A DNA stretch of 64,000 bases. Source: Sediminibacillus dalangtanensis (GTDB lineage Bacteria > Bacillota > Bacilli > Bacillales > Amphibacillaceae). Below, one piece after another: positions 26,005 through 42,648 of this stretch (position 1 is the first letter of the stretch; every line of letters begins with the position of its first letter). The notes below the pieces were generated by a model, which saw only the letters and a list, made by a program, of their open reading frames with translations, did no database searches and was not told the DNA's origin. Location: assembly GCF_017792025.1 (NCBI RefSeq), contig NZ_CP046956.1, positions 3,162,001-3,226,000 on the forward strand, read 5' to 3'. The position numbers and the translations under genes were made by a program.

Positions 26005-26033
26005 TTGACAGTTATCGTTACCATTGGTAATAT
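26005..26033 (+). promoter_or_regulatory. Sigma-A promoter of the SAM-riboswitch operon
   Basis: A consensus TTGACA (26005-26010), a 17-nt spacer and TAATAT (26028-26033) place the start near 26040, about 30 nt before the riboswitch P1 stem. Confidence 0.8.
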
Positions 26034-26071
26034 AATTCCTAATTAAACCAAAAACCAAATAAACGAAGGTG

Positions 26072-26226
26072 TCTCTTATCAAGAGCAGGTGGAGGGAAAT
26101 GGCCCGATGAAGCCCGGCAACCGACTGTAATACCATTGTGAAATGGGGCGTATCACTACGCCGCGGTTCTAACCGCTTAAAGCACGGTGCTAATTCCTGC
26201 AGTAGCAATACTGCAAGATAAGAGAA
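26072..26226 (+). promoter_or_regulatory. SAM-I (S-box) riboswitch
   Basis: The aptamer shows all S-box landmarks: TCTCTTATCAAGAGCAGGTG with GGAGGGA at the 5' side, GATGAAGCCCGGCAACCG, the GGTGCTAATTCCTGC core, and the closing AAGATAAGAGA. The outer stem TCTCTTATC pairs with GATAAGAGA. A terminator follows at 26252. When S-adenosylmethionine is scarce, transcription would read through into the micropeptide, symporter and monooxygenase genes. Confidence 0.96.
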
Positions 26227-26251
26227 AGGGCGTTGCATGTTTTGGATGATA

Positions 26252-26281
26252 AACCTCTTTCTCTTAGAAAGAGGTTTTTTT
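26252..26281 (+). terminator. Riboswitch-controlled intrinsic terminator
   Basis: AACCTCTTTCT and AGAAAGAGGTT form a strong stem followed by a T-run, 25 nt after the SAM aptamer. The AGAGAAAG sequence at the 3' end of P1 could pair with the CTCTTTCTCTT arm, giving the antiterminator. Confidence 0.92.
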
Positions 26282-26314
26282 GATTGCTTTTATCAACTAA
26301 AGGAGGAATACGAA

Positions 26315-26413
26315 ATGTTTCTAATGTATGGATTATCGGCTATTGGTTTTGCTTTGATCGGGAGCATTGTTTGCTCGATTATGTATCCGAAAGGCAAGGA
26401 GGCCGCTAAATGA
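26315..26413 (+). CDS. Symporter small accessory protein (32 residues)
   Basis: AAAGGAGG lies 10 nt before an ATG opening a 32-residue frame, MFLMYGLSAIGFALIGSIVC followed by SIMYPKGKEAAK. It is one transmembrane helix with a short positively charged cytoplasmic end. Its TGA overlaps the ATG of the symporter by 4 bp (ATGA), so the two are translationally coupled. Tiny one-helix partners are known next to some Na+ symporters, for example MetS beside MetP in Corynebacterium. It probably stabilises or completes the transporter. Confidence 0.8.
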   Translation: MFLMYGLSAIGFALIGSIVCSIMYPKGKEAAK

Positions 26414-27909
26414 GTACATTGCCGACTTGGACAATTATACTGATTGTATTGCTGCTCGCCAGTTATGTTGTTGGTGTCTCCTATATCGGAAAACGGGGTG
26501 CCCCATACAGCAAAACAATGGCCGGATTCGCAACGGCTCGCGGCAAAGTAAGTCCCTGGCTTGTCGGAGCCAGTTTTGCTGCTACCTTTGCCAGCGCCAA
26601 TTTATACTTAGGGCTTCCGGGACTCGCCTATCAATATGGCATTTCAGTATTGTGGTACACATTAGGCAGCTTTGGCACCGCATGGATCGGGCTGCTACTC
26701 TTCGCAAAAACATTTTGGAAGTATCAAAAAGAAAAAGGCGGTGTGTCCACCTTGCCAGAGTGGCTGGGAAAACGCTATAACAGCAAAACGCTTCAAATCT
26801 TGGTATCTATTCTACTATTGTTCAATATCTATTATATCGTCGGACAAAATGTAGGACTAGCAACCATATTTGAAACGATCATCGGTATCCCATACGAATG
26901 GGGAGTCGTCGCCGGCGTGATGATCACCATCATTTACATCGGGCTGGGCGGTGCCTTTGCTCAAATCATCACCGATGCTTTTCAGGGGATATTGATGTCT
27001 GTCACCTCTGTCTTGATTATTGTTTCATTGTTCTGGACAATTGGTGGCGGCTTCCAGGTATTTGACCGGATGTTCGATCAACTTGCGGCCATTCATCCTT
27101 CCCTAGTCTCCACCTTTTCAGCAGAGGGTCCCTATGACAGCGTTCCGACTGTCCTTGCCATACAATTTTTGATGATCAGTTTTGTATTGATGCCTCATTT
27201 ACTAAATAAGATTTTGGCGATTGAAACGGAAAAAGAACTGCGTCCATTTGTAATTTCCAGTGGCGTGCATTTATTCTTCATTTCTTATCTGCCTGTGTTT
27301 GGCGGATTTGCAGCAAGGATTCTCGTTCCCGGCCTGGCCGAGGCAGATCAAGCATTGCCCGCTTATTTAATCGAGGCTTTTCCACCCGCCCTCGTTGCGT
27401 TGATGATTGTCGGTGTAATTTCAGCAGTGCTTTCGAGCACAGACAGCCTTTATCTATCGATAACTTCCAGTATCGGCAATGACATTTACCTGCCGCTGGT
27501 ACAAAAAACACAATCCAGACTTACTCCCGCCAACTATGATCAGCGTGCAGTTATCATTGCAAAGTCTTCTTTGATAGTTGTCGGAGCTGCTTCGCTGTAC
27601 TTGTCAATAAATCGCCCGGAGTCCCTGGCCATGCTCATTCAATTTAGTTTCTCGGCCATCATCAGCGGCGTATTCGGACCAGTGCTGCTAGGCTACTTTT
27701 GGAATAAAGGAAATCGAACAGGCGCAATTGTTTCCGTTTTAACCGGTTCCCTGTCCTATTTGGCCTTTACACAATTCAACCTGCTCCCTAATTTGTACAT
27801 TGCCCTGTTTGTCAGTTCTGCTCTTGGATTTATCAGCATGCTGGCGGCGAGCTATTTGGCGACAGCATTCGGACCTAAGGTGCGTATGGCTGGCAAACAT
27901 AGTGCTTAA
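26410..27909 (+). CDS. Sodium:solute symporter (SSS family), SAM-riboswitch controlled
   Basis: A 499-residue membrane protein with about 13 helices. The SSS landmarks include FATARGKVSPWLVGASFAAT near the N-terminus, the GVMITIIYIGLGGAFAQIIT helix with DAFQG after it, and VISAVLSSTDSLYLSITSSI for Na+ coordination. AAGGAGG lies before the ATG, inside the accessory gene. Most SSS proteins carry proline, pantothenate, sugars or carboxylates. Here control by SAM level and the following monooxygenase suggest a methionine precursor or an organosulfur compound, but the substrate is not readable from sequence. Confidence 0.9.
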   Translation: MSTLPTWTIILIVLLLASYVVGVSYIGKRGAPYSKTMAGFATARGKVSPWLVGASFAATFASANLYLGLPGLAYQYGISVLWYTLGSFGTAWIGLLLFAKTFWKYQKEKGGVSTLPEWLGKRYNSKTLQILVSILLLFNIYYIVGQNVGLATIFETIIGIPYEWGVVAGVMITIIYIGLGGAFAQIITDAFQGILMSVTSVLIIVSLFWTIGGGFQVFDRMFDQLAAIHPSLVSTFSAEGPYDSVPTVLAIQFLMISFVLMPHLLNKILAIETEKELRPFVISSGVHLFFISYLPVFGGFAARILVPGLAEADQALPAYLIEAFPPALVALMIVGVISAVLSSTDSLYLSITSSIGNDIYLPLVQKTQSRLTPANYDQRAVIIAKSSLIVVGAASLYLSINRPESLAMLIQFSFSAIISGVFGPVLLGYFWNKGNRTGAIVSVLTGSLSYLAFTQFNLLPNLYIALFVSSALGFISMLAASYLATAFGPKVRMAGKHSA

Positions 27910-27950
27910 ATGGCAAATTGCTAAATAATTCGTTACAGGAGGAATTCCCA

Positions 27951-29336
27951 TTGACAAAAGAAATCATTTTACATGCCTTCGAAATGAACAGCGCGATGCA
28001 TAATTCGCATGGACTTTGGAAACATCCGGACAGCAAGCGGCATCGCGGCTATAAGGATTTGCAATATTGGGTAGACCTTGCCCGCTTGTTGGAGAAAGGT
28101 AAATTCGATGCGGTGTTTTTTGCTGATGTGCTCGGCATTTACGATGTTTACCGTAATAGTAAAACGCCATCAATCCGAGATGGTTTACAAGTGCCGGTGA
28201 ACGACCCTGCCCTGCTTGTTTCAGCAATGGCACAAGCGACTGATCACCTGGCATTCGCCATTACTGTCAGCACCACCTATGAGCCACCCTTCGGCAATGC
28301 CAGACGTTTTTCCACTCTTGATCATTTAACTAATGGCAGGGTAGCCTGGAATATCGTCACCTCCTACCTGCCGAACGCTGCCAGAAACTTTGGTCTCGAA
28401 AAGATGATTAAACACGATGAACGATATGATATTGCCGATGAATATCTGGATGTATCCTACCAACTTTGGGAAGGCAGCTGGGAAAATGATGCATTTCTTG
28501 AAGACAGGAAAGAAGGTACTTTGATCAACCCGGAAAAAGTCCACGAAATCAAACATCATGGTAATTATTTCAATGTGGAAGGACCGCACCTTAGTGAACC
28601 ATCCCCGCAAAGAACTCCTGTCCTTTACCAGGCAGGAACATCAGAACGCGGCCGTGCCTTCGCCGCAAAGCATGCCGAGTGTATTTTTGTCGGCGGTCCG
28701 ACCCCAGAAAGGATCCGATATTATATCGAAGACATCAAAGAACGGGCAGAAAAACACGGACGGGATGCTTCCAAAATCAAGTTTTTATGCTTCCTAAATG
28801 TGATTGTCGGAGAAACAACCGAGGAAGCGGAGCGGAAATACGAAGAATACGCCAGTCATTGGAGTCCGGATGCTGCCAAAGCACAGTACGGTGCCAGTGG
28901 CTATGACATTTCAGAGTATGAAGTACTCGACCGCTCCTTGCCGTTTGAATATACAAAAAAGACAGAGGGTGGCCATTACAAAGCGGCAACCCTGACAAAA
29001 GATGCTCCGAAAAAGCTTACTGTAGGGGAAGTGCTCGACCGCTTTGAAACGTTGGACCGTTCTACTATCATTGTCGGAAATCCAGAAGAGGTAGCCGACG
29101 CCATCCAATTCCAATTTGAAGAATCCGGAGTGGACGGCTTTAACTTAAACCATTTTGTCACTCCTGGAGATTTAGAGGCTTTTGTGGAATTAGTGGTACC
29201 TGTCCTGCAAAAACGCGGCATTTACAAAAAGTCGTACAGGGAGGGAACCCTGAGAGAAAAGCTTTTCTCCACAGGGACTTTCCTGCCCGCCGATCATCCG
29301 GGCAGCAAATATCGAAAAGAATCAGTGAAAAAATGA
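27951..29336 (+). CDS. LLM class flavin-dependent monooxygenase (NtaA/SnaA/DmoA family)
   Basis: A 461-residue bacterial-luciferase-like enzyme that uses reduced FMN and O2 and needs a separate flavin reductase. Diagnostic blocks are FDAVFFADVLGIYDVY, the TVSTTYEPPFGNARRF segment, DHLTNGRVAWNIVTSYLPNA, ERYDIADEYLDV and GTSERGRAFAAKHAECIFVG. Relatives oxidise sulfur compounds (dimethyl sulfide, sulfones, dibenzothiophene sulfone, S-succinylcysteine) or NTA/EDTA. The start is TTG 27951 with AGGAGG 7 nt upstream. It is the last gene of the SAM-riboswitch operon, so oxidative release of sulfur for methionine is the most economical reading. Confidence 0.9.
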   Translation: MTKEIILHAFEMNSAMHNSHGLWKHPDSKRHRGYKDLQYWVDLARLLEKGKFDAVFFADVLGIYDVYRNSKTPSIRDGLQVPVNDPALLVSAMAQATDHLAFAITVSTTYEPPFGNARRFSTLDHLTNGRVAWNIVTSYLPNAARNFGLEKMIKHDERYDIADEYLDVSYQLWEGSWENDAFLEDRKEGTLINPEKVHEIKHHGNYFNVEGPHLSEPSPQRTPVLYQAGTSERGRAFAAKHAECIFVGGPTPERIRYYIEDIKERAEKHGRDASKIKFLCFLNVIVGETTEEAERKYEEYASHWSPDAAKAQYGASGYDISEYEVLDRSLPFEYTKKTEGGHYKAATLTKDAPKKLTVGEVLDRFETLDRSTIIVGNPEEVADAIQFQFEESGVDGFNLNHFVTPGDLEAFVELVVPVLQKRGIYKKSYREGTLREKLFSTGTFLPADHPGSKYRKESVKK

Positions 29337-29338
29337 TT

Positions 29339-29369
29339 GAAGACAGACTCTAGGGTCTGTCTTCGTTTT
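29339..29369. terminator. Bidirectional terminator
   Basis: GAAGACAGAC-TCTAGG-GTCTGTCTTC forms a 10-bp perfect stem. GTTTTAT follows on the plus strand, after the monooxygenase, and ATCATTTTTTC follows on the minus strand, after the PadR operon. Confidence 0.85.
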
Positions 29370-42230: not shown

Positions 42231-42298
42231 CAGAATGAAAAAACACATAAACGCCCCGAACTGACAGGACGCCATACGTTGATCTAACTGTTCGCTTA

Positions 42299-42365
42299 CT
42301 CGTAGTCGGGCAATTTACGGTTACCCGGTAGAAACTTGCAGGCCATATTCCTGCTATTATACGAG
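42299..42365 (-). promoter_or_regulatory. Guanine (purine) riboswitch of xpt-pbuX
   Basis: On the minus strand the aptamer reads CTCGTATAATAGCAGG, ATATGGCCTGC, the conserved loop GTTTCTACC, and ACCGTAAATTGCCCGACTACGAG. P1 is CTCGTA/TACGAG. The specificity base in GACTACGAG is C, which selects guanine over adenine. Guanine binding would stop transcription before xpt. The stretch 42366-42648 shows no other clear feature; it must hold the xpt promoter. Confidence 0.95.
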
Positions 42366-42648
42366 TTTCATCAGTGCGTATATTGTTTTCGATACATTGA
42401 ATTATAACGAATTTTGTCAGATATGCAAATGTTTTTTCATGACAGTTTACTAGAAAGGTGTTGTTTTAGACACTAGGTAGAAACAGCGACACAGTGATAA
42501 CCTCTTTTCAATTAAGTCCATACATAAAGCATCAGCAGAACACTTTGCTTTCCGTGGGTAGGACTTCAAGCAAAAAACTTCTTTGAGATCTTCAGAAGTG
42601 TATTCTCCCCATCGAAAATAAAGACTTTGCCTAAATTGCAGAGCGGAA

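Follow-up and report, generated by a model that had tools for sequence, protein, structure and literature searches.

The stretch of DNA analysed here, the window, comprises 64,000 nucleotides of the salt-loving bacterium Sediminibacillus dalangtanensis (NZ_CP046956.1, positions 3,162,001 to 3,226,000). On its plus strand, a unit of ~3.3 kb (26005-29365) is composed of a promoter, an S-box riboswitch that senses S-adenosylmethionine (SAM), and the genes for a micropeptide, a symporter of the sodium/solute symporter (SSS) family, and a flavin mononucleotide (FMN)-dependent monooxygenase. With a probability of about 0.6, this locus is a SAM-repressed operon for the import and FMNH2-dependent C-S cleavage of an organosulfur compound that feeds methionine synthesis. 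The parts of the unit, their conservation, and their linkage are established by computation and bear out a first-pass annotation, which had placed an S-box with promoter and terminator ahead of a micropeptide, an SSS symporter, and an NtaA/DmoA-type monooxygenase. That annotation had also remarked on the lack of a methionine biosynthesis gene, which holds for the operon, though other S-boxes of the genome lead met genes.

The leader begins with a sigma-A-type promoter (26005-26033, plus strand), TTGACA-N17-TAATAT with TG before the -10 element, that recurs at all five loci aligned from the genus. Promoter-like sites are not enriched in that stretch (8 observed, 9.7 expected from shuffles). The aptamer of the SAM-I (S-box) riboswitch lies at 26073-26224 (plus strand) and matches RF00162 with 73.5 bits (gathering score 44.4, E 2.5e-15). 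The covariance model R1 agrees with RF00162 on the window and on the nine sources checked with both, eight being matched by both models and the LadA plasmid locus by neither. An insert of ~51 nt (26129-26179, plus strand), positioned by the Rfam alignment, lies in the P3 region of the aptamer, and folding places three hairpins in it. This insert is kept in five species of the genus, with differences mostly in loops. Two further S-boxes are longer than 150 nt (L127:7059-7210 and L250:7579-7734), and their insert region differs in sequence from that of the window. Downstream of the aptamer core, folding yields a 10-bp antiterminator (26219-26266, plus strand) in which TAAGAGAAAG (26219-26228), the 3' side of P1 and beyond, is paired with CTTTCTCTTA (26257-26266), which lies within the 5' arm of the intrinsic terminator. 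The terminator itself, found by terminator scan and folding, occupies 26251-26277 (plus strand) and is followed by a T run. The antiterminator is mutually exclusive with both P1 and the terminator, an expression platform of the kind that SAM-I riboswitches have. Taken alone, the antiterminator hairpin folds at -16.5 kcal/mol and the terminator at -13.8 kcal/mol.

The first gene of the operon (26315-26413, plus strand) encodes a micropeptide of 32 amino acids, a conserved companion of the symporter that by its look has a single transmembrane segment and is preceded by the Shine-Dalgarno (SD) sequence AAAGGAGG. A longer reading frame of 58 amino acids begins upstream of the terminator, and its start is not the likely one. 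The symporter (499 amino acids; 26410-27909, plus strand) starts in overlap with the micropeptide stop (ATGA). It belongs to the SSS family by both the Pfam SSF model PF00474 (185 bits, threshold 22.8) and TIGR00813, whose cut-off of 184 it barely passes at 184.3 bits. The best NCBIfam model of a single function, PanF, gives 163.9 bits, under its cut-off of 328. ThiV, described in the excerpted text of PMC2211319 as a PanF homologue behind a thiamine pyrophosphate riboswitch, is likewise preceded by a riboswitch, but the riboswitch in the window senses SAM. Unlike the PanF/ThiV type, the symporter type in the window has a companion of ~26-35 amino acids outside known families: against Pfam and NCBIfam, the window peptide has no match and none of five relatives has one over the cut-off. 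YhdT, DUF485, and MetS are larger companions of other symporters.

The third gene (27951-29336, plus strand) encodes a luciferase-like monooxygenase of 461 amino acids with a TTG start preceded by AGGAGG; the mechanical reading frame from 27918 would be 472 amino acids. At 527 bits against TIGR03860 (cut-off 279.7), the enzyme is a member of the NtaA/DmoA family, and at 92.1 bits against the SfnG model TIGR04021 (cut-off 382.95) it falls outside that one. The best solved match is LadA (3b9n; 553 bits, 53% identity), the second is DmoA (6ak1; 439 bits), and weaker matches are YtnJ (267 bits) and DszA (255 bits). A terminator-like hairpin from the terminator scan (29338-29365, plus strand) closes the operon.

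All five species examined in the genus, namely that of the window with Sediminibacillus terrae, S. halophilus, S. albus, and Virgibacillus senegalensis, retain the S-box and all three genes. The five aligned loci also share the promoter, the core of the aptamer, the antiterminator, and the terminator. The micropeptide is conserved as a protein, its non-synonymous divergence (pN) being lower than its synonymous divergence (pS) in all ten species pairs; between the window and S. halophilus there are 11 synonymous changes and 1 non-synonymous change. Across an alignment of 18 examples, M1, Y5, G16, and Y24 are invariant. The exact gene order, for which the first-pass annotation had proposed a search in other Firmicutes, was seen only in Sediminibacillus (these five species), while each half of the operon is linked to S-boxes more widely, in several genera.

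The symporter half was followed through its homologues. Among 159 genomes of the family, 37 have one at E<=1e-80; a sample of 299 genomes from the order yielded 16 with one at 1e-120, six of them shared with the family set. With the window, the total is 48 loci. A same-strand S-box stands upstream of the symporter at 46 of the 48 loci (at 40 within the main stretch, at the other 6 in additional upstream sequence). One of the loci without an S-box, L126, ends at a contig edge. The micropeptide is also present at 46 of the 48, and the same filter applied as a control to 326 other genes (L091-L150) returned none; since the filter (Tyr5, Gly16, length, SD) was fixed after the loci had been viewed, the 46 of 48 arises partly by construction. 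At the two misses, the symporter match lacks its first 95 residues in one case and has an internal stop in the other.

Three types of partner accompany the symporter: the window operon, a thiolase/CoA-ligase set, and an LLM2-type monooxygenase, in some cases with an AhpD-like protein. The thiolase type includes genes for a thiolase, an acetoacetate-CoA-ligase (698 bits against a cut-off of 520.9 in L102), an SCP2-thiolase, and an OB-fold protein. Such partner genes would suit an organic acid or an organosulfur compound, naming neither. At L097-L118, L275-L278, L280, and L281, S-box-led operons hold the thiolase, acetoacetate-CoA-ligase, SCP2-thiolase, OB-fold, micropeptide, and symporter genes in varying subsets and orders, and several have a tandem pair of S-boxes in front. 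These operons imply that a sulfur compound is handled by a CoA-dependent route. At three other loci (L095, L096, and L274), a protein of 221-223 amino acids is encoded between the S-box and the symporter genes; the L095 copy has similarity below cut-off to MsrP and sulfite dehydrogenases. The LLM2-type homologue that adjoins the symporter at L121 is split over two reading frames.

The monooxygenase half was traced in a tree, with the best 80 of 157 homologue loci named. The window enzyme sits inside a clade of 43 rows (support 100/100), made up of every homologue with 63% identity or more (30), 12 further named loci, and one plasmid. Eight named loci (L151-L154, L156-L158, and L170) were omitted from the neighbour counts of the clade as duplicate genomes, and L164, L167, and L168 are one species among the 43 loci. 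Upstream of every clade member, at 42 of 42 loci and in the window, lies a same-strand S-box; this count and that for the symporter test strand and order, and intervening genes on the opposite strand were checked by viewing the locus maps. The usual neighbour of the clade enzyme is a MetNPQ-type importer (27 of 43) rather than an SSS symporter, which is found on the same strand in 5 of 43 loci, all of this genus, and divergently in 1 of 43. The single divergent case, Halobacillus hunanensis (L162), has S-box-micropeptide-symporter and S-box-monooxygenase units in divergent orientation and is the only neighbourhood of this symporter and a window-clade monooxygenase found outside Sediminibacillus. 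In the tree, the five rows of the window genus nest among the MetNPQ-linked rows and L162 (a group of 15, support 96/97). From this nesting, the SSS gene beside the monooxygenase looks like a later replacement of one importer by another. By best-hit labels, the S. dalangtanensis genome still has a MetNPQ set of the same type, led by its own S-box (L028).

A flavoprotein of the acyl-CoA-dehydrogenase (ACAD) type lies at most 3.5 kb from the enzyme, divergent or in tandem, at 17 of 42 loci, and 16 of the 17 have a same-strand S-box upstream of it. The one copy scanned, from L127, matches the models of SfnB, DszC, and 3-sulfinopropanoyl-CoA desulfinase, all below cut-off. YEGT, the glutamate motif of acyl-CoA dehydrogenases, is absent from it, and this absence fits an S-oxygenase. 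A DszC/SfnB-type flavoprotein near the clade enzyme recalls the DszC/DszA pair. The ACAD-type protein also follows the symporter at three loci (L096, L274, and L283); its presence beside the enzyme and beside the symporter ties the two halves together. Among the best 80 of 157 homologue loci are 60 from proteobacteria, mostly Pseudomonas and hence not independent. At these, a related pairing recurs: homologues of MetQ, MetN, and MetP lie downstream in 44 and an SfnB-like/ACAD-type flavoprotein upstream in 50, and a scan of 6 of the 60 for S-boxes found none. At three Acinetobacter loci (L188, L208, and L216), a monooxygenase homologue 54-55% identical to LLM2 comes after a same-strand MetK homologue.

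The genome of S. dalangtanensis has 12 S-boxes, and 3 of the 12 S-box units, that of the window included, carry luciferase-like monooxygenases. The second encodes SsuE (196 bits against 164) with an NtaA/DmoA-family monooxygenase (584 against 279.7) and a pyridoxal phosphate enzyme. The third encodes an SfnG-like monooxygenase (274.6 bits, under the cut-off of 382.95) with an ATP-grasp protein and a BCCT-type transporter (359.6 bits, under the cut-off of 407.55). Another unit joins metY (661 bits against 495) to an SsuA-family protein (259 against 163.5), SsuC, and SsuB, and another holds a metE-type gene (548 bits against 313). The remaining units lead metX, metK, a second metY, two MetNPQ systems, and an alcohol dehydrogenase with a nitrilase. 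At G000:C1:1425500-1436000 (L027), an S-box is followed by a 250-amino acid protein of the short-chain dehydrogenase/reductase (SDR) type and an NhaC-like antiporter, for which an NCBIfam match at 1e-30 is absent. The names metX, metK, MetNPQ, second metY, SsuB/C, ATP-grasp, alcohol dehydrogenase, nitrilase, SDR, and NhaC-like come from reading the sequence only. A gene at G000:C1:3717 that had appeared to be a broken NtaA-type monooxygenase, from partial TIGR03860 matches, is actually an intact SfnG-like protein of 349 amino acids.

The S-box ties of both halves, together with the SsuE, SsuABC, and monooxygenase genes under S-boxes in the same genome, lend good support to a scavenging role, and organosulfur scavenging under SAM control is probable. 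The first-pass annotation had proposed that the cell imports and oxidises an organosulfur compound when SAM falls. The organosulfur role withstands the comparison, through the S-box linkage (43 of 43 and 46 of 48) and the SsuE, SsuA-family, MetY, and SfnG-like members of the regulon; the pairing with an SSS symporter does not generalise, as this is not the usual partner of the enzyme. None of its candidate substrates, which were dimethyl sulfone, compounds like dimethylsulfoniopropionate (DMSP), methyl thioethers, and S-succinyl-cysteine, is singled out. Weighing on these candidates, DmoA groups with another paralogue and the SfnG-like enzyme is a separate S-box gene.

SAM binding stabilises P1, so termination should be favoured, a direction of control that follows the known S-boxes. 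With SAM bound, P1 would be held and transcription would stop at 26251-26277; when SAM is low, the terminator would lose its 5' arm to pairing with the 3' side of P1, and read-through into the operon would follow. The S-box regulon of Bacillales has the same aptamer and termination logic, but its usual units differ from that of the window, which has a symporter and an FMN monooxygenase and no methionine gene. The 32-amino acid micropeptide would act as a small subunit of the symporter, which would import a small organosulfur compound, probably with Na+. The compound would most likely be a methionine-like thioether carboxylate or an S-oxide thereof. The exchange of a MetNPQ importer for the symporter and the CoA-ligase partners make this the preferred class, but the preference is tentative, at less than even odds. 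CmoJ/YtnJ, DszA, SfnG, and SsuD share the luciferase-like fold family with the window enzyme but are distant from it in sequence. The FMNH2-dependent C-S-cleaving monooxygenases of this fold use a separate flavin reductase. The single flavin reductase recognised in the regulon, SsuE, is encoded in trans to the window unit and could supply the FMNH2. Family and regulon point to C-S chemistry, by which the monooxygenase would release a thiol, sulfite, or homocysteine. This product would then pass through MetX/MetY to methionine and SAM.

Several observations weigh against this account. The computed ligand-free leader prefers the terminator form by 2.8 kcal/mol (-75.0 kcal/mol, against -72.2 kcal/mol with the antiterminator enforced). 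One symporter locus (G082; L113, L239) has no S-box in the fetched sequence; its micropeptide and thiolase set stand behind metY and an AhpD-like gene, and another regulator may have taken over there. Most SSS loci pair with thiolase and acyl-CoA-ligase genes and not with the monooxygenase of the window type, so the symporter could be carrying a CoA-activated acid that has nothing to do with the enzyme. In 10 of the 43 clade loci, the enzyme is flanked by neither MetNPQ-type nor SSS genes. Co-regulation is no proof of one pathway, and MetNPQ and the enzyme could merely share a regulon. The ACAD-type flavoprotein adjoins the enzyme in only the 17 of 42 loci given above, and its closest homologue in the S. 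dalangtanensis genome (49%) adjoins no S-box of that genome. Lastly, the nearest solved enzyme, LadA, is named an alkane monooxygenase, and according to the excerpted text of PMC12449030 it is also inactive on dibenzothiophene sulfone.

The most serious alternative, though an unlikely one, is that the enzyme attacks a membrane-permeable sulfur compound, such as dimethyl sulfide or dimethyl sulfone, and releases methanethiol or a sulfinate for assimilation by MetY or other enzymes, while the symporter, though co-regulated, carries something else, for instance methionine or a DMSP-like precursor. Methanethiol is usable by MetY. DmoA, a dimethyl-sulfide monooxygenase, is of the same subfamily as the window enzyme, has like it a Tyr at the site of the LadA His, and is its second-best solved match (439 bits). 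The S-box loci of relatives also hold DmoA-group and SfnG-like enzymes near homologues of MetY and SsuA. In the tree, however, DmoA, which has a long branch and thus a less sure placement, groups with the paralogue LLM2 (98/95), apart from the window clade (100/100), which lowers dimethyl sulfide as a substrate by DmoA homology. The MetNPQ-type importers beside the clade enzyme (27 of 43) suggest instead a substrate that needs uptake. The LLM2 paralogue is often found in S-box SsuE-LLM2 operons, and a same-strand S-box lies upstream at 24 of 25 fetched LLM2-type loci, counted by eye, L254 being the one without. At L250-L253, L255, and L258, divergent S-boxes face SsuE with a DmoA-group monooxygenase on one side and an SfnG-like enzyme with ATP-grasp on the other, some of them with MetY or SsuA homologues on the latter side.

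Less likely again, the symporter is a plain importer of methionine or keto-methionine, and the monooxygenase, although encoded on the same transcript, has an independent role in repair or detoxification, for example in dealkylating damaged thioethers as CmoJ does for cysteine. The frequent position of the clade enzyme beside MetNPQ-type genes agrees with this, and CmoJ provides a precedent, its salvage of S-alkylcysteine sulfoxides through C-S cleavage being described in the excerpted text of PMC10863075. Such an importer would, however, be oddly matched with the thiolases, acyl-CoA ligases, and FMN monooxygenases that accompany the symporter, and two S-box MetNPQ systems already exist in the genome, as read from its sequence.

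That the enzyme is an alkane monooxygenase of the LadA type, or acts on another non-sulfur substrate (for example at a C-N bond) that the symporter imports, is very improbable. LadA of Geobacillus thermodenitrificans (3b9n) is of the same subfamily, the best solved match (553 bits, 53% identity), and in the tree a weakly supported sister of the window clade (81/31); the names nitrilotriacetate monooxygenase and EDTA monooxygenase also occur in the family. Yet an S-box stands ahead of 43 of 43 clade members, and none was found by RF00162 or R1 at the LadA plasmid locus. LadA and the window enzyme also differ at His138 and Cys14 of LadA, residues important for its catalysis. In query numbering, sites 14 and 139 hold Cys and His in LadA, Ser or Ala and Tyr across the window clade, and Ser14 and Tyr139 in the window enzyme; the His is unique to LadA among 129 aligned rows. 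The alkane hydroxylation of LadA could itself not be reproduced in 2025, and the role of LadA was declared open (PMC12449030, as excerpted), which together with the S-box linkage of the clade lowers alkane oxidation as a candidate.

That the S-box is non-functional here, or does not control these genes, is scarcely credible: among the 12 S-boxes of the genome only one scores lower, and the insert of ~51 nt is unusual, but promoter, core, antiterminator, and terminator are kept in five species and S-boxes recur at orthologous genes.

Each protein family of the operon, the micropeptide aside, and the S-box riboswitch are known; their combination behind an S-box appears to be new. As judged from titles and the openings of abstracts, no paper among the matches listed describes S-box control of such an operon, though an earlier mention in an older survey is possible. 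If the locus does serve SAM-repressed import and C-S cleavage of an organosulfur compound, the S-box regulon would reach beyond making and importing methionine and also cover probable oxidative scavenging of sulfur, in many Bacillaceae and related bacteria. A broader proposal, somewhat short of even odds, is that the SSS symporter with its obligatory single-transmembrane micropeptide of ~30 residues forms a new transporter class for organosulfur (methionine-like) compounds, and that the LadA-like enzymes of Bacillota are C-S monooxygenases of SAM starvation, not alkane enzymes, that release a methionine precursor. The S-box linkage offers a regulatory clue to the true role of the LadA/DmoA-group flavin monooxygenases, the alkane activity of LadA being unreproduced in the excerpted text of PMC12449030. 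The comparison also reveals a conserved micropeptide that adjoins a sodium symporter (46 of 48 loci) and that, at ~30 residues, is easily overlooked by annotation. Elsewhere in the window, at 42283-42384 on the minus strand, a purine riboswitch aptamer (RF00167) scores 89.1 bits.

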